DNA of 28,125 nucleotides from a virus. Both the position numbers and the translations under genes were made by a program. The notes under the pieces were generated by a model that worked only from the letters and a program-made list of their open reading frames with translations, searched no databases and was not told the origin of the DNA. Location: positions 1 through 28,125 of the IMG/VR virus record IMGVR_UViG_3300048589_001428. One strand, 5' to 3'. Shown one piece after another: positions 2,545 through 28,125 of this stretch. The first letter of the stretch is position 1, and each line of letters starts with the position of its first letter.

Positions 2545-3147
2545 ATGGCGGCGCGAGACGTGGACAGGCGGCTCTCGGAGCTGCTGGCGGAGCTGTGGCC
2601 CCACCGCGAGGATGTTGTGGGGCGGGCGCGGCGGGCCGGCATTGAGCCCGAGGAGCTGCGACTGACCGGCTCGGTGGCCAATATGTGGGATGAGGTTGTG
2701 CACTATGCACGGGTGCGGGGGCTGACGGCGGCGCTGATACACGAGGCGCAGTCGGACCATGCGCTGCCGGAGCTGGAGGAGCTGCGGCGCGCGGAACTGC
2801 GGACGGGGAATCGGGCGCTGGACAGCATGGGTGAGATTATCACGGATCACCTGGACAAGATGCGGCAGGAGATGCGCGAGATGGAGAAGCGCATCTCGGC
2901 GCGCATTGACGCCGTGGAGGGCAAGGTCGACCGGTTGCAGGCGGTGAGCATCATGTACACGGCAAAGAAACGAACGGCGTGGCTGGTGGGGTTTCTTTTG
3001 TTTGCGCTGCCGTGCATGCTGCTGATCCAGGAGGTGCGGCAGGCGGTGGATCTGTCGCCGGCGGGTGCGGGGCTGGTGGTGGCGGTGGTGTGGACGGCAT
3101 CGTGCGCGCTGTTGATGTACGGGATTGGATTGTTGAGGGATTTGTGA
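2545..3147 (+). CDS. EAD1-like domain, coiled coil and two membrane helices
   Basis: A 200-residue protein in three parts. Residues about 5-78 form a helical domain with 'LAELWPHREDVVGRARRAGI' and 'TGSVANMWDEVVHYARVRG'. I read it as an effector-associated domain of the EAD1 type, known from bacterial conflict systems as an adaptor that pairs with like domains. Residues about 85-133 are a charged coiled coil. Residues 144-163 and 175-196 are hydrophobic helices. The C-terminus ends just after the second helix. The likely form is a membrane anchor that displays the EAD. The stop overlaps the GTG of the protease gene (GTGA), so the two are probably translationally coupled. It has no resemblance to tail proteins. 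The domain call is from motif memory; the paralogy to the protease C-terminus is directly visible. Confidence 0.7.
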   Translation: MAARDVDRRLSELLAELWPHREDVVGRARRAGIEPEELRLTGSVANMWDEVVHYARVRGLTAALIHEAQSDHALPELEELRRAELRTGNRALDSMGEIITDHLDKMRQEMREMEKRISARIDAVEGKVDRLQAVSIMYTAKKRTAWLVGFLLFALPCMLLIQEVRQAVDLSPAGAGLVVAVVWTASCALLMYGIGLLRDL

Positions 3148-4109
3148 GCGAGTGTGTGCTGCCGCCGCCGAGCAAAGCGCCGGACGAGACTCTGGAACTG
3201 GCGCTGCTGCGCGACAACAAGTGGCCGGAGGAGCACCGCACGATCTCGGTGCGGCTGATGACGACGGACGGGCCGCTTGCGTTCCGCGTGGCGTCGCTGG
3301 TGGCGATGCACTGGAATCGGGCGAGCGGGCTGCAGTTTGTCTTTGTGAGTACGCCCCCCTCCGACATTCGGGTGGCATTCGACTATGGCGCGAGCTGGAG
3401 TTATGTGGGGACGGACTGCCTGACCGTGGACGAGCCGACGCACACGATGAATCTGGGCATCAGCCTGGACACGCACCCCGAGAGTGTGCAGCGGACGGTG
3501 CTGCACGAGTTTGGCCATGCGCTGGGCTTTATCCACGAGCACCAGTCGCCGAACCGCAATCTGCCGTGGAACAGGGAGGCGGCGTACGAGTTCTACCGCG
3601 TGCGGGGCTGGGACCGAGAGACGGTGGACCGGCAGGTGTTTGGGGATTACCTGGACTGGGCCGAGGCGGGGGTGTATGACGTCGACTCCATCATGCACTA
3701 TGCGATTCCGGCAGAGCTCATGCTGGATGGGGTGGCACGGGGCGGCTCGCACACGTTGAGTGCGGAGGATGTGGCCATGGCGCGTTTGTGGTACGGCCCT
3801 CCCCCGGCAGAGCCTGTGGCGGCGCCCATGCTGCACCAGTTTCTGCCCGTGGTGCGCACGGACGGGATGATTGTGGATCGGCTGGCCGAGTGGTACCCCT
3901 ACGCCGAGGACGTGACGGCTGTGGCGCGGCGGGCAGGATTGCCACCTGAGCGCATCCCGATGAGCGGGAGCGTGCTCAATCGGTGGGATGCCGTGGTGCG
4001 GCACGCACGGGGCCGGGGCCAGGTGGGTGCGCTGCTGCGTGCTGCGCTGGATGTGTACGGGGCGCCGGCAGCGGATGTCGAGCAGTGGGCGCGTGAGGAG
4101 CAGGCGTGA
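3144..4109 (+). CDS. Astacin-like zinc metalloprotease with C-terminal EAD1-like domain
   Basis: The 321-residue protein carries the full metzincin zinc site HExxHxxGxxH: H121, E122, H125, G128 and H131 in 'HEFGHALGFIHEHQSP'. The Met-turn is 'SIMHY' at 182-186, the astacin (M12A) form, with M184 and Y186. 'SWSYVG' at 85-89 also fits bacterial astacin-like peptidases. No signal peptide or propeptide is seen, so a cytoplasmic enzyme is likely. Residues about 236-316 form an EAD1-like domain with 'AEDVTAVARRAGLPPER' and 'SGSVLNRWDAVVRHARGRG'. It aligns closely with the N-terminus of the preceding protein. The start is the GTG overlapping the upstream stop, with a GAGG site at 3135-3138. The role is inferred: proteolysis directed to an EAD partner, perhaps at the membrane. 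Confidence 0.82.
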   Translation: MSECVLPPPSKAPDETLELALLRDNKWPEEHRTISVRLMTTDGPLAFRVASLVAMHWNRASGLQFVFVSTPPSDIRVAFDYGASWSYVGTDCLTVDEPTHTMNLGISLDTHPESVQRTVLHEFGHALGFIHEHQSPNRNLPWNREAAYEFYRVRGWDRETVDRQVFGDYLDWAEAGVYDVDSIMHYAIPAELMLDGVARGGSHTLSAEDVAMARLWYGPPPAEPVAAPMLHQFLPVVRTDGMIVDRLAEWYPYAEDVTAVARRAGLPPERIPMSGSVLNRWDAVVRHARGRGQVGALLRAALDVYGAPAADVEQWAREEQA

Positions 4110-6430
4110 CAACTGTCTCCGAGGATTTTAGCGGGACACTCTCCAACTGGGCGCAGGACTCGGGGTCGTGGACGATCACGAGCGGCTACCTGTACCAGTC
4201 GGAGACATCCGGCGCGTATCGCAAACTGCGCTGGACGGGCGCCGCGCTCAGTGGCGACGATGTAGCGGTGCAGGCGGTGGTGCGCTCGCCGAGCAGCGCG
4301 ATTGGCGTTGGCGTCTACGCGCGCGGGACGACGGACAGCACGGTGACCTACTACGGCCTCGTCGTGTTTGCGACGGCGGGCGTCTACCTGGTGGAGATTA
4401 CGGGGGGCAGCGAGAGTGTGCTGGCCTCGTGGACGGCAAGCCCGCCGGCGGCTGATACCGATGTGACGCTGCGGCTGGAGTGCGAGGGAAGCAGCCTGCG
4501 CGGCTACGTCAACGGCACGGAGCGGCTGAGCGCAACGGACGCGACGCTGAGCAGTGGCAGCGTGGGCATGATGTCGTATGGCGGCGGGCTGGGGGGCAAC
4601 CGCGCCGACGATTGGACGGCGTATGACCTGACGCCCGCCGCGCCGACGGCGCCGGCCTACATCGGCAGCACGACCAACGGCAGCAGCACGACGGGCACAA
4701 GCCTTGCGCTGAGCCTGCCCAGTGGCGCGCAGGCGGGCGACCTGCTCGTGGCCGCGCTGGTGCACGAGAACGCGAATCCTGCGGGGCTGAGCGGGCCGAG
4801 CGGGTGGACGCCGATGTCGAGCAGCACGCCGAGCGGGACGGCGCGCGCGTTGCGGTTGACGACGTGGTACCGCGTGATGCAGAGCGGCGACACCGGGCCG
4901 TGGTCGTGGACGACGACGACGGCGTATGAGCGCGGCGGCATTATGGCCGCGTACCGCTATGCGGACGTGCCGACGGTGTGGGCCAGCAGCACGACCAACA
5001 GCAGCAGCGTCAACGCGGTGGCGCCTTCGATTACGACGGGCGCGGCCAATGCGCTGGTGCTGGTGGCGGCGTGCAGCGCGTACGGCACGACGTGGACGGC
5101 GCCGACGGACTATACGGAGCGCGCCGACTATCGCACGAGCACGGGCGCGAGCAATGTGAGCATCTCGCTGCACGAGCGGTTGCGTGCGACGGCGGGGGCG
5201 ACGGGCACGGCGACGGCGGTCGCGGCTCTTGCGGACTACTGGGTTGCGGCGCACGTGGAGCTGCCGTTCCAGGCGCCGGGCGTGGATCTGGCGGCGGCGG
5301 TGGCGGCGGGGACGGATACGCCGACTGCGGCACTGGCGGTGAGCCGGGCGGTGGCGGCGCTGGCGGCCGCGGCGACGAGTACGCCGACTGCTGCGCTGGA
5401 TGTGGCAGCGGGCAGCGAGATTGTGGTGGCCGGGGCGGCGGGCGCGTCGACGAGTACGCCCACGGCGTCGCTGGGTGTGAGCCGGGCGGTGGGCGCGGGC
5501 GTTGCCGTCGCAACCGCATCGCCCGCCGGCGCGCTGGCGGTGACGCGTGGTGTGGCGGTCGCGGCGGCGGGGATCTCGACGACGGCGACGGCGCAGCTCG
5601 CCGTGACGCGGCGAGGGGCGGCGCTGGTGGACGCGGCGACGGGTACGGCGGCGGCGTCGCTGACTGTGGTGGGGGTGGTGAGTCTGTCGGCCGCGGTGGC
5701 GGCGAGCTCGGCTGCGGCAGATGGCGGCCTCGCCGTGGCGCGTGGTGTGGCCGCGGGGATGGCGGGGGCTTCGACGACTGGAACGGCCGTTCTGGGCCTT
5801 CTGTTGCGGGTGAGCGGGGCTGCGGCCGCGGCGACGGTGACACCCACGGCGGCGCTGGCCGTGGTGCGACGGGCGAGCGGGGCCGTTGGCGCGTCGACGG
5901 CAACGGCGGAGGCGCCGCTGAGCATTGCGGGGCTGGTGGCTCTGGCGGCGGCGATGGCGGGGCAGACGGGCTCGGCGGCGACGCTGGCTGTGCTGCGCGC
6001 GGTGGCCGGGGCGGCTGCGGTGGCGACGAGTACGCCCACGGCGTCGCTGGATCGGGGGGTGGTGGCTCTGGCCCAGGTGGCGGCGCTGAGCGGGACGGCA
6101 GCGGCGGATCTGCGTGTGGCGCGGGCAGTGGGCGCGCTGATGGCGGGGCAAAGCGTGACGGCGGATGCGGCGCTCTACACGGCGGCGGTGATTGTGCTGG
6201 TGGCGCAGATGGGTGCGCTGAGCGCGACGGCGGCGGCTCTGTTGCGGGCGCAGCTGGTGGCGGGGCGGTTGCGCAGTGTGGCGGCGGCCGGTGCTCCCGG
6301 GGTGCAGGTGGTGGCCAAGGCGCCGGGCTGCATGGTGACGGGACGCGGGGCGATGGTGGCAGGGGCGGCGGCTGCGCCGGCTCTGGGGGTGACGGCAGCA
6401 CGGCCGACAGTGGCAGTGGAGGAGGTGTAG
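4106..6430 (+). CDS. Phage structural/appendage protein: LamG-like head and alanine-rich repeats
   Basis: 774 residues, starting with GTG that overlaps the protease stop (GTGA) behind a GAGGAG site at 4095-4100. Residues about 1-175 look like a concanavalin/LamG-like beta-sandwich ('EDFSGTLSNWAQDSGSWTI', 'VTLRLECEGSSLRGYVNGTE', 'GSVGMMSYGG'). Residues about 180-385 form a second beta-rich domain ('GAQAGDLLVAALVHEN', 'SGWTPMSS', 'GIMAAYRYADV'). Residues from 393 on are about fifteen repeats of 20-24 residues. The first domain could bind carbohydrate. It is probably a tail-surface or decoration protein, but the virion position cannot be read from the sequence. Confidence 0.6.
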   Translation: MTTVSEDFSGTLSNWAQDSGSWTITSGYLYQSETSGAYRKLRWTGAALSGDDVAVQAVVRSPSSAIGVGVYARGTTDSTVTYYGLVVFATAGVYLVEITGGSESVLASWTASPPAADTDVTLRLECEGSSLRGYVNGTERLSATDATLSSGSVGMMSYGGGLGGNRADDWTAYDLTPAAPTAPAYIGSTTNGSSTTGTSLALSLPSGAQAGDLLVAALVHENANPAGLSGPSGWTPMSSSTPSGTARALRLTTWYRVMQSGDTGPWSWTTTTAYERGGIMAAYRYADVPTVWASSTTNSSSVNAVAPSITTGAANALVLVAACSAYGTTWTAPTDYTERADYRTSTGASNVSISLHERLRATAGATGTATAVAALADYWVAAHVELPFQAPGVDLAAAVAAGTDTPTAALAVSRAVAALAAAATSTPTAALDVAAGSEIVVAGAAGASTSTPTASLGVSRAVGAGVAVATASPAGALAVTRGVAVAAAGISTTATAQLAVTRRGAALVDAATGTAAASLTVVGVVSLSAAVAASSAAADGGLAVARGVAAGMAGASTTGTAVLGLLLRVSGAAAAATVTPTAALAVVRRASGAVGASTATAEAPLSIAGLVALAAAMAGQTGSAATLAVLRAVAGAAAVATSTPTASLDRGVVALAQVAALSGTAAADLRVARAVGALMAGQSVTADAALYTAAVIVLVAQMGALSATAAALLRAQLVAGRLRSVAAAGAPGVQVVAKAPGCMVTGRGAMVAGAAAAPALGVTAARPTVAVEEV
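5282..6256 (+). repeat. About fifteen coding repeats of 20-24 residues
   Basis: The protein repeat has the form V-x-A-x-A-A-x-x-S-T-x-T-P-T-A-x-L-x-V-x-R-x. Examples are 'VAALAAAATSTPTAALDV', 'VAGAAGASTSTPTASLGVSR', 'VSGAAAAATVTPTAALAVVR' and 'VAGAAAVATSTPTASL'. At DNA level, short blocks such as CGACGAGTACGCC recur near 5383, 5449 and 6024. Similar alanine-threonine repeats are familiar from other phage structural proteins. Confidence 0.8.
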
Positions 6431-6431
6431 G

Positions 6432-7238
6432 GTGGGCAGCATTTCGGACTATCTCGAGGGGCAGTGGATCAACCATCTGTGCGGAACGGCGTACAGCGCG
6501 CCGGCGACTGTGTATGTGGCGCTCTGCACGGCGGACCCGACGGATGCGGGGACGGGTGCGAGCATGAATGAGTGTGCCAACAGCGGGGGCTATACGCGCA
6601 AGGCGGCGGCCTTTGGGGCGGCGTCGGCGCGTGCGATCTCGAACAGCGGGACCATCACCTTCGACCAGGCGTCGGGGAGCTGGGGGACGGTGACGCACTG
6701 GGCGCTGGTGGATTCGGCGACGTACGGGGCGGGCAATCTGCTGGCGCATGGGGCGCTGTCGCAATCGAAGGCAATTGTGGCGGGCAATACGCCATCGTAT
6801 GCGGCGGGCGCGTTGCAGGTGAGCGTGAGTGCGGGGGCGTGGAGCACGTACCTGGCGAACGCGATGCTCGACAAGACCTTCCGGGCGCAGACGTACAATC
6901 AGCCGGCGACCTATGTGGGGCTGACGACGACGGTCTGCAGCGACTCGGCTGCGGGGACGGAGGCGAGCGGCGGCTCGTATGCGCGGGTGCTCGTCAACAA
7001 GGTGGGCGGTGGCTCCCCGGCGTGGGCGGCGATTAGCGGCGGGGCGACGAGCAATGCGCAGGCGATTGCGTTTGCGGCGGCGACGGCGAGCTGGGGGACG
7101 GTGGTGGCGGCGGCGCTCTTTGATGCGTCGAGCGGGGGGAATCTGCTCTGCTACGACAACGCGATGGGGGACAACGCGGTGGCGAGTGGGGATTCGGTGA
7201 CCTTCCCGATTGGCGACTTTGACATTTCGGTGACCTAG
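6432..7238 (+). CDS. Tail fibre-type protein with a duplicated domain
   Basis: The 268-residue protein is two copies of one domain of about 130 residues. Each has a start like 'DYLEGQWINHLCGTAYSAPATVYVALCTADPTD' or 'NAMLDKTFRAQTYNQPATYVGLTTTVCSD', then 'SGGYTRKAAAFGAAS'/'SGGSYARVLVNKVGG', then 'SWGTVTHWALVDSATYGAGNLL'/'SWGTVVAAALFDASSGGNLL'. The copies end at 'GALQVSVS' and 'GDFDISVT'. This domain is common in siphophage tail or minor structural proteins. The start is GTG at 6432, one base after the previous stop, behind GGAGG at 6420-6424. The function of the domain is not known to me beyond a structural role. Confidence 0.68.
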   Translation: MGSISDYLEGQWINHLCGTAYSAPATVYVALCTADPTDAGTGASMNECANSGGYTRKAAAFGAASARAISNSGTITFDQASGSWGTVTHWALVDSATYGAGNLLAHGALSQSKAIVAGNTPSYAAGALQVSVSAGAWSTYLANAMLDKTFRAQTYNQPATYVGLTTTVCSDSAAGTEASGGSYARVLVNKVGGGSPAWAAISGGATSNAQAIAFAAATASWGTVVAAALFDASSGGNLLCYDNAMGDNAVASGDSVTFPIGDFDISVT

Positions 7239-7589
7239 ATGGCGCGCACACGGTTGGGCACAGAGGCTGTGGAGCAGTCGAGCTATGTGATTACGCTGGG
7301 CTTTCTGGATGCCGCCGGCAATCTGGTGACTCCGGACAGTGCGTCGTGGACGCTGAGCACGGCGGCGGGGACGGTGATCAACGGGCGGGAGGAGGTGACG
7401 ATCTCTCCGCTGGCGGCGACGGTGACGATTGTGCTGAGCGGGGCGGATCTGGCGCTGGTGGTGGGGGACAATGCGCCGGCGCGGCGGCTGCTGACGGTGG
7501 AGGCGACCTACTCGAGCGATGAGGGGGCGGCGCTTCCGCTGCGCGATGAGTACGAGTTTGCTGTTCGCCATTTGGCGCTGGTGGGGTAG
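7239..7589 (+). CDS. Small beta-rich phage protein of unknown function
   Basis: 116 residues starting directly after the previous stop. It reads as a single Ig-like or similar beta domain: 'SSYVITLGFLDAAGNLVTPDSASWTLS', 'VTISPLAATVTIVLSGADL', 'RRLLTVEATYSSD'. A 'D-x-x-G-x-x-V-x-P' start and alternating strands resemble domains that decorate phage surfaces. The place between a tail fibre-type gene and the tape measure suggests a minor tail protein. No specific family was recognised. Confidence 0.5.
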   Translation: MARTRLGTEAVEQSSYVITLGFLDAAGNLVTPDSASWTLSTAAGTVINGREEVTISPLAATVTIVLSGADLALVVGDNAPARRLLTVEATYSSDEGAALPLRDEYEFAVRHLALVG

Positions 7590-25952: not shown

Positions 25953-26689
25953 ATCGCTACGATAGCAGCGCGCGCTTTGTGGCCCCGACCCTCGACGGCG
26001 ACCCGGAGTTTGGCCGCTACGGCACCACGCCCGAGCCGACAGTAGGCGGGCGCATGGCCGTCGCCGTGGGCCACCTGCTCACGGCTCTGGCCGTCGTCGC
26101 ATGCGCGGGCGCGGCCATGCTCACGATTTACGCGCTCTGGTATCTGTTCACCGGCACGAGCGTGGCCATCGTCGTCGCGCTCTTCCTGGGCTGTGCATTC
26201 CTGTGGGCGTTCGGCCTCGTCGCCGTGTGGCGCACCACGCTCGACGAGTGGGCCATCCGGCACGATCAGCGCATGTGGCACGCGCTGCAGCATCGCCTGC
26301 GCAACGCGCAGCAGGAGCTGGCCGCGGCGCAAGAGCGCGACGCGACGGCGCGCGACACCATTGCATCCCTGCGCGCGGAACTGGCCGAGGCACGCGGCGC
26401 CCTCTTCAAGGCCACATTCACCGGCACAACCGCCCGCCACATTCCGGCTGTGCCCCCCCCAGATGATCCTGTCCTTGCCGACGCCAAACGGCTGGCCACG
26501 CAGTACTACGAGCACGGCCAACGCATCAGCAGGCGACGCGCCACGTCGGTGCTGGGCTGGCCCGAGTCGCGCTATCAGCAGGCGTGGCACGTGCTCAAAC
26601 TGGCCGGCGTCGTGGGCGACAAGGACTGGCACGATCTCACGCTCGATGAGGCGCTCGCGCTGCTCTCACCACCCCAGGAGATTCCATGA
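25949..26689 (+). CDS. Membrane protein with coiled coil and winged-helix-like end
   Basis: 246 residues. Two membrane helices (about 32-58 and 67-92: 'LLTALAVVACAGAAMLTIYA', 'SVAIVVALFLGCAFLWAFGL') follow a 30-residue N-terminal tail. Residues about 108-155 are a long coiled coil ('RNAQQELAAAQERDATARDT'). Residues about 175-240 look like a winged helix ('RRRATSVLGWPESRYQQAWH', 'LKLAGVVGDKDWHDLTLDEA'). A membrane-anchored DNA- or partner-binding protein is suggested. It overlaps the Csf1-like gene by four bases, so it may be made with it. Confidence 0.55.
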   Translation: MNRYDSSARFVAPTLDGDPEFGRYGTTPEPTVGGRMAVAVGHLLTALAVVACAGAAMLTIYALWYLFTGTSVAIVVALFLGCAFLWAFGLVAVWRTTLDEWAIRHDQRMWHALQHRLRNAQQELAAAQERDATARDTIASLRAELAEARGALFKATFTGTTARHIPAVPPPDDPVLADAKRLATQYYEHGQRISRRRATSVLGWPESRYQQAWHVLKLAGVVGDKDWHDLTLDEALALLSPPQEIP

Positions 26690-27402
26690 GCATCAGCGCC
26701 GCACAACTACTCCGCCGCGGCATGGGTTGGGGGCCGCTCGACAAGCCGCCCCAGCCCTGCACCGCCCACTGCGCAGTCACGGGGCTGGCCATCACTGCCG
26801 GCTACCCGGCACACGCAATCATCCCGTCGAGCACAGGCAACATGCTCGATATCCTGCCCGGCGGCGCGGCCGGCTGGCTCAGCGAGGATGCAGCCATCTG
26901 CTACGCCAACGATTTCCGCATGGGCGGGCGCCTCATCTTCGAAGATGGCACGATGCACTACCCGCTCATTGATGCCAAAGCCGCCGCCGAGCAGGAGCGC
27001 CCATGTTGGCGCACGCTCATTGCCCGGGAGCTGCCGGCGCGCGTCGGCCAGCGCCACCTCTGCTTGCTCAACACCGACTACAAGAAGCGCGTCTGGCCGC
27101 GTACGCCCGTCAGCGCCGTCGGCCCCACCATGCGCTGGCACATCAACGATGCGAGCCGTGGCGTACAAGCCGTGGTGCAGCTCAATCTGCAGCACCTGCT
27201 CTCCACACTTGCGTTGGTGGAAGAAGTCTACGAAGCCTACCCCAAGCCGCGCATCGAGCGCGGCCTGTGGGATGCAAAAATGCCCAGCGGCGTGACATGG
27301 CCGCAAATGCAGCAGTGGGAGCGCGCCTTGCGCTCCGCACGAACAACCCCGGAGTTTGCAGTCGCGATTATCGTCGCGCAGAAAGGGCAGCAGAATGTTT
27401 GA
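26686..27402 (+). CDS. Csf1-like protein (type IV CRISPR large subunit-like)
   Basis: 238 residues. An N-terminal zinc-finger-like part has C25, H28, C29 ('CTAHCAVTGLAITAG') and later C72 ('AAICYANDF'). The middle has 'RPCWRTLIARELPA' and 'LCLLNTDYKKRVWPRTPVSA' with a D-x-K-K-R-x-W-P core. The end has 'LLSTLALVEEVYEAYPKPRI', then 'RGLWDAK' and 'RTTPEFAVAIIVAQK'. I associate this layout (zinc finger, 'KKRxWP', then a helical end with 'LVEEVYE...I..GL' and 'TPEF') with Csf1 proteins of type IV CRISPR systems. It is followed at once by a Cas7-like gene, the same order as csf1-csf2. This is a motif reading without database support. Confidence 0.5.
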   Translation: MSISAAQLLRRGMGWGPLDKPPQPCTAHCAVTGLAITAGYPAHAIIPSSTGNMLDILPGGAAGWLSEDAAICYANDFRMGGRLIFEDGTMHYPLIDAKAAAEQERPCWRTLIARELPARVGQRHLCLLNTDYKKRVWPRTPVSAVGPTMRWHINDASRGVQAVVQLNLQHLLSTLALVEEVYEAYPKPRIERGLWDAKMPSGVTWPQMQQWERALRSARTTPEFAVAIIVAQKGQQNV

Positions 27403-28125
27403 TGTCGAGCTCCTGCTCACCGCCACCCAGCCAATCAGCCACAACGATGCCGGCGCAGGCGACACCGGCAACGTGCTCACCTTCAATCGCCGCAAGCAAC
27501 TTCTTGAGCGCGAGGCAGGCGACGCGCTCAGCCAGGAGGAGATCACGCGCTTCTGCGCGGCCCACCCCGTTCCCGCCGAAGTGTGGGAAGTCTTGCAGCA
27601 CATCTCGTTTGCCGAGTATGTTGCGGCGTCGATGGCCGCAGAGCTGATTGGCGTCTACGGCGGCGGCGACGGCTACGGCTTGCTCACCGGCGTGAGCCGC
27701 TACGAGATGCTCGAGCGCAAGCTCTCCAGCGCAGCCATTGTGAGCAGCACGCTGCCGCGCATGTGGAGCGCGCTCTGCAACAGCCTGCTGCTGCCCATTC
27801 ACCCCGCCGCGCTCGACGAGCGGCTCATGCAGTACTGGGCGCTCTCCCCCTCGGTGCAGAGCGCGGTGATTGCCACGTGCGTGGAGCAAGCGCGCTCCGT
27901 CGTGAGTGTGGCGCGCTTCTGGAGCAGCCAGGCGAAGTTGCGCAGCGAGAGCTACGCCAAGCGCAGCGGCGCAGAGGTGGCCACCGGCGAACTTGTTGCG
28001 CCAACCTATCGCGCCGAGGAGCAGCCGGCCATCGGCACGCTGATCGCCGATGTGCCCACGATCAGCAGCAACGGCACTCGCCACCAGATCGTGCGCACAC
28101 CGGCATGGGCGCACCTGACGCGCCT
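27395..28125 (+). CDS. Cas7 (Csf2)-like protein, cut by the window end
   Basis: 243 residues are visible, with no stop before the edge. The start at 27395 overlaps the Csf1-like stop by eight bases. The N-terminus 'MFDVELLLTATQPISHNDAG' followed by 'GDTGNVLTFNRRK' looks like the first strand and loop of a Cas7 RRM fold. 'VPTISSNGTRHQIVRTPAWA' at about 220-239 matches the 'P-x-I-S-x-N-x-x-R' motif of Csf2-like backbone subunits. A helical stretch of about 180 residues lies between the two motifs, longer than I would expect, and may be a distinct insert. The rest of the protein and any csf3, cas6 or array would lie beyond the window. Confidence 0.52.
   Translation, partial: MFDVELLLTATQPISHNDAGAGDTGNVLTFNRRKQLLEREAGDALSQEEITRFCAAHPVPAEVWEVLQHISFAEYVAASMAAELIGVYGGGDGYGLLTGVSRYEMLERKLSSAAIVSSTLPRMWSALCNSLLLPIHPAALDERLMQYWALSPSVQSAVIATCVEQARSVVSVARFWSSQAKLRSESYAKRSGAEVATGELVAPTYRAEEQPAIGTLIADVPTISSNGTRHQIVRTPAWAHLTR

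Follow-up and report, generated by a model that had tools for sequence, protein, structure and literature searches.

Subtype IV-B CRISPR systems, such as those of Mycobacterium sp. JS623 and a Rhodococcus jostii RHA1 plasmid, comprise csf1, cas11, csf2 and csf3 along with a cysH-like gene. In the IV-B complex, a Csf2 filament and a minor filament of Cas11 are formed on RNA, with each Cas11 located at a Csf2-Csf2 interface; when expressed in E. coli, the complex assembled on heterogeneous non-CRISPR RNA (PMC7937560). Subtype IV-A encodes Csf1, Csf2, Csf3 and Csf5 together with DinG. Cas7-11, the effector of subtypes III-E and III-I, links several Cas7 domains and Cas11 in a single polypeptide (PMC12669027). 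Type IV systems are known in phages, prophages and archaeal viruses (PMC11656645, PMC10848311), and the Bathyarchaeia virus 'Fuxiviridae' carries type IV-B, reported with the typical components of this subtype (PMC10848311).

The stretch of DNA analyzed here (hereafter, the window) is an entire virus record of 28125 bp, from a temperate-looking tailed phage in which a major tail protein, a tail tape measure protein, an integrase and a replication initiation protein were recognized. The last two ORFs of the window, encoding P0001 and P0002 (denoted csf1L and cas7L; Table 1), very likely represent the 5' part of a phage-borne, type IV-B-like CRISPR effector operon in which Cas11 is contained within Cas7. 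The start of csf1L overlaps the upstream ORF by 4 nt, and the ATG of cas7L (27395) lies ahead of the csf1L stop codon (27400-27402), resulting in an overlap of 8 nt. The record ends at 28125 without a stop codon in cas7L; therefore, P0002 is truncated and the record gives no access to the downstream genes. No contig reaching past the window was identified. By inference from the relatives, the C-terminal half of Cas7, a CysH-like gene and csf3/cas5 are expected past the contig end.

Table 1. Features of the csf1L-cas7L pair in the window (coordinates in nt; residues are those of the encoded protein)
Feature	Coordinates	Strand	Basis
csf1L (P0001), Csf1/Cas8-like large subunit, 238 aa	26686..27402	+	AF2 model, fold, hhalign, relatives
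cas7L (P0002), Cas7/Csf2-like backbone subunit, N-terminal 243 aa	27395..28125	+	PADLOC typeIV_Cas7, relatives, family alignment
Cas7 N-terminal strand and H-x-D...N...FNRxKQ motif, residues 1-38	27395..27508	+	alignment
Helical insertion, about residues 39-215 (~180 mostly helical residues)	27509..28039	+	family-level Cas11 homology
Core of the Cas11-like segment, residues 103-190 (RYEMLERKL to SESYAKR)	27701..27964	+	alignment to L058
Cas7 palm motif VPTISSNGTRHQIVR, counterpart of the canonical 'yvsGNsvRGrLRR'	28052..28096	+	PADLOC best stretch, residues 217-240

Neither P0001 nor P0002 matched any family in Pfam or NCBIfam, and searches with the single sequences (against the PDB and viral, genome, phage and plasmid collections, and by peptide-pattern scans) yielded nothing useful. 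The first PADLOC search produced one match, typeIV_Cas7 to residues 217-240 of P0002 (E 7.6e-4). When the single sequences were compared to our first Csf1 and Csf2 profiles, P0001 did not score above shuffled controls and P0002 was marginal. Because single-sequence scores did not clearly exceed those of the shuffles, we based the assignments on family profiles and folds. Full-length relatives were retrieved from viral contigs with a degenerate DNA pattern for the H-x-D...N...FNRxK motif, and an alignment of these first relatives led to additional loci in viral contigs, Chloroflexota genomes and whole-genome searches. Altogether, 11 distinct full-length cas7L relatives (452-478 aa) were identified, with 27-43% identity to the half protein of the window. 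E-values to the window copies ranged from 3e-53 to 2e-27 for cas7L and from 7e-52 to 2e-15 for csf1L. The family is rare, being detected in 2 of 400 genomes drawn by phylum and in 6 of 396 drawn by class, with two of these six encoding only distant Cas7s. Adjoining csf1L-cas7L homologs with 27-43% identity to the window proteins are present in 10 other loci, which disfavors a chance pairing.

P0001 is a Csf1-type large subunit, as expected of a type IV system. Its AlphaFold (AF2) model, built from 11 sequences, has a pLDDT of 90.6, and the only two significant PDB matches of this model, 7xg1_A (E 5.0e-6) and 8rc3_G (E 4.7e-5), are solved type IV-A Csf1 chains. Comparison of the csf1L family with a profile of 19 Csf1 sequences using hhalign gave probabilities of 96.7 in local and 98.1 in global mode; the other families did not exceed 0.2. 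An intact zinc finger, previously proposed from sequence alone, was rejected: the zinc-binding cysteines are mostly lost, with Cys29 of P0001 being the sole invariant cysteine among the relatives and the other canonical Csf1 cysteine positions replaced.

P0002 is the N-terminal half of a Cas7/Csf2-type backbone protein, the second feature that places the pair in type IV. Four PADLOC typeIV_Cas7 models match the 11 full-length members (E about 1e-25 to 1e-34, the best being 1.3e-34); PDLC01572 matches all 12 cas7L proteins, the window copy included, and TIGR03115 matches the relatives, though only below its cut-off. The AF2 model of cas7L is of moderate quality (pLDDT 78, pTM 0.60), and its PDB matches are Csf2 of IV-A and IV-B as well as Csm3. 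The S, H, D, N, F and R positions of the N-terminal motif are invariant in the 12 sequences, and so are the P, S, N, R, H and R positions of the palm motif across the family. In a Cas7 tree constructed with the insertion (see below) removed, the family forms one clade (100/100) among IV-B-type sequences, split from IV-A with 100/100 support. The clade sits on a long branch, and its exact sister is unsure. This places the Cas7 of the family with IV-B and apart from IV-A. The tree did not include the truncated window copy, which does align with the family.

A helical insertion that separates the first strand of the Cas7 fold from the palm motif very likely makes the Cas7 of this family a single polypeptide carrying a Cas11-type domain, with homology established at the family level. 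PADLOC PDLC01695 (typeIV_Cas11) matches the insertion in 5 of the 12 members (best E 4.3e-7), and a Cas11 profile that we built from eight IV-B-type loci matches it at E<=0.05 in 8 of the 12. The hhalign comparison of the insertion with IV-B Cas11 yielded a probability of 83-91 (P 1e-6) and a score of 44.4; 120 column shuffles reached 17.8 at most, and 120 block shuffles 34.4. The insertion of the window copy alone has no significant Cas11 match and was placed through alignment to the family: its residues 103-190 align with residues 120-205 of the L058 protein, which match PDLC01695 at E 7.3e-6. In the loci with the insertion, our Cas11 profile detected no separate cas11 gene, the only match being inside cas7L, whereas in the sister locus L070/L072, Cas7 lacks the insertion and the same profile found a separate cas11 ORF (PADLOC E 1.6e-31). 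Plasmid IV-B-type Cas7s align solely to residues 212-465 of cas7L. Among viral proteins, the one closest in fold to the cas7L model has 137 aa (target TM-score 0.68, E 0.045); this is also the length of the Cas11 of Skermania phage SPI1, and whether the two are the same protein is unconfirmed.

The preliminary description of the window had proposed two overlapping ORFs in the csf1-csf2 order, quoting motifs for both, and had interpreted them as Csf1-like and Cas7-like proteins, the latter with a helical stretch that might mark a distinct subtype. The ORFs, their order, the overlap and the motifs were confirmed, both identities held on the fold and profile evidence above, and the idea that the helical stretch sets a distinct subtype apart was borne out, the stretch being a Cas11-like domain.

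In the relatives, csf1L adjoins cas7L on every contig with room for both genes, and most of these contigs also encode a CysH-like protein and a Csf3-like protein. The typical gene order is csf1-cas7-(winged helix)-cysH-csf3. The csf3L products match PADLOC typeIV_Cas5 (E 3.6e-29 to 2.6e-24); the CysH-like genes, frequent in the family loci, match PAPS_reduct (PF01507, E 4e-20) and also the DndC and BrxP profiles. In L057, the small gene between cas7L and cysH encodes a winged helix protein; csf1L of L056 carries a fused helix-turn-helix. The family loci contain no recognized nuclease or helicase, and no DinG was noticed in the ORF lists of the relatives, which were inspected without a DinG profile. 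In L054 (2075-3361), a radical SAM/B12-binding-type protein replaces the CysH-like one, and in L064 (1410-5342) cas7L is separated from csf3L by two CysH-like genes and a ParB-like gene.

The module is shared by phages that are otherwise unrelated and by Chloroflexota contigs. On the contigs of L054 and L056-L059, terminase, portal or DnaC-like genes are encoded nearby. Among 26 window proteins compared to the module-bearing contigs, only csf1L and cas7L had matches, and the neighboring membrane-protein genes showed no similarity there. The possibility that the module is a fixed part of the tail-gene relatives of the window was rejected, given its absence from 19 of these, many of which are fragments.

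Compared to subtype IV-B, the family shares Csf1, Cas7, Csf3/Cas5 and CysH-like components, the placement of Cas7 among IV-B-type sequences in the tree, and phage members in which no array was found. It differs in having no separate cas11 gene, the Cas11-like domain being inside Cas7; in the loss of most Csf1 zinc cysteines; in gene order; and in that one member, L074, encodes Cas6 and arrays. The Csf1 and Csf2 folds are shared with subtype IV-A as well, but the relatives lack a recognized DinG and their Cas7 falls outside the IV-A clade. Similar to Cas7-11, Cas7 and Cas11 are combined in one polypeptide; unlike Cas7-11, there is a single Cas7, with Cas11 inside its fold, so that many copies would still be needed. 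The presence of type IV-B-type genes on a virus is shared with 'Fuxiviridae' (PMC10848311) and with Skermania phage SPI1, which, in contrast to the family, encodes Cas11 separately from a Cas7 without the insertion (orf40-44). In that isolated phage (KR011061; L090:3840-7473), Orfs 40-42, annotated as hypothetical, are type IV Csf1, Cas11 and Cas7, orf43 is probably Cas5 and orf44 is CysH-like, together a type IV-B-type system. Phage-borne type IV is thus already known, and what appears to be new is the Cas11-in-Cas7 variant of a type IV-B-like system. We found no report of Cas11 inserted into a type IV Cas7 in the literature searched, but that search did not include key type IV surveys, and an earlier description is not excluded.

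The preliminary description had also suggested searching past position 28125 for csf3, CysH-like genes, cas6 and a repeat array. The first two are present in relatives and unreadable in the window. Neither the window nor the examined phage records yielded a CRISPR array; two arrays and cas6 are present in L074, a 7.7-kb contig of a Chloroflexota metagenome-assembled genome (MAG) that encodes csf3L, csf1L, cas7L, a CysH-like protein and Cas6 (E 5.9e-16). The arrays (2722-3334 and 7176-7504) have two different 37-nt repeats, and their spacers had no full match among the loci compared. CRISPR linkage is shown in one member only and rests on this single contig. A possible mini-array downstream of the module in G033 (L081; at about 40685, period 73) was rejected as a 73-nt tandem duplication spanning about 40640-40810.

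We propose that Cas7L subunits would polymerize along a guide RNA, an assembly inferred from the family, with each subunit bringing its own Cas11 domain, such that one protein would supply both the backbone and the minor filament at a fixed 1:1 ratio. Csf3L would hold the 5' end of the RNA and Csf1L would cap the complex. Guides are inferred to come from host CRISPR arrays or, in L074, from its own arrays. Guide use is uncertain because no array was found in the window or phage contigs and because the solved IV-B complex bound non-CRISPR RNA (PMC7937560). The complex would most likely act by binding, as no nuclease or helicase was recognized in the loci, and would thereby silence a competing element or a gene of the host. 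Silencing itself is slightly more apt to prove wrong than right. Neither the molecule bound by the complex nor its target is proven, and use against competing phages or plasmids, as suggested in the preliminary description, has not been shown.

Among the alternatives, the one that survives best, a minor but viable possibility, is a non-CRISPR ribonucleoprotein that coats non-specific RNAs and, with the CysH-like PP-loop protein, serves in nucleic-acid modification or another phage function. Assembly of the solved IV-B complex on heterogeneous non-CRISPR RNA (PMC7937560) speaks for this explanation, as do the frequency of CysH-like genes and their DndC and BrxP profile matches. However, L074 ties the same genes to CRISPR arrays and Cas6, and in L054 the CysH-like gene gives way to a radical SAM gene. 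An improbable alternative is a decoy, that is, an anti-CRISPR acting by mimicry, which would soak up host crRNAs or compete with host Class 1 effectors and in this way shield the phage, without any targeting of its own. The phage contigs found without an array, the lack of a recognized nuclease or helicase gene nearby and the mimicry proposed for a phage Cas9 (PMC10910872) speak for such a role; a complete Csf1-Cas7-Csf3 set with a CysH-like protein exceeds the needs of a sponge, and one relative (L074) retains arrays and Cas6. It is still less plausible that the insertion is an unrelated helical domain that resembles Cas11 by coincidence of helix composition: single-sequence Cas11 matches are short and weak, block-shuffled controls reach a score of 34.4 and the window insertion alone is not significant, but several independent Cas11 models match the same place, the hhalign score depends on column order, and loci with the insertion have no separate cas11 gene, while those without it have one. 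Finally, that the pair are ordinary phage early genes unrelated to CRISPR, as the lack of Pfam and NCBIfam matches might suggest, is practically ruled out by the fold and profile matches of both proteins and of their neighbors in the relatives.

Under the preferred reading, that of a type IV-B-like effector with Cas11 inside Cas7, the family would represent a route to a Cas7-Cas11 fusion independent of type III. The function of type IV-B is an open question, and the family, shared among unrelated phages and with a Cas7:Cas11 ratio that would be fixed in one chain, provides a tractable system with three or four small proteins, a natural CRISPR repeat and a clean comparison to the uninserted sister locus. 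A bolder reading, which we consider no more than possible, is that this is a mobile effector of a distinct subtype exchanged between unrelated Chloroflexota phages, a compact RNA-guided silencer that would borrow host crRNAs against rival elements, with some members having arrays of their own.

Several additional observations were made in the course of the analysis. A Chloroflexota prophage (L072:1872-4555; G459:C108) carries an ordinary type IV csf1-cas11-cas7-csf3 locus, with terminase and portal genes following a few kb downstream; this locus is a natural control without the insertion for the cas7L family. Similar-looking proteins of 252-256 aa, without a PHROG match, are encoded beside two different type IV loci, L074 (3413-4174, minus strand) and L072 (5049-5819, plus strand). 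In the tail-gene region of the window, the protein encoded at 2979-4109 contains a zinc metallopeptidase-like HEFGHALGFIHEH motif, and the adjacent tail-module protein (4106-6430) is long, repetitive and Ala/Thr-rich.
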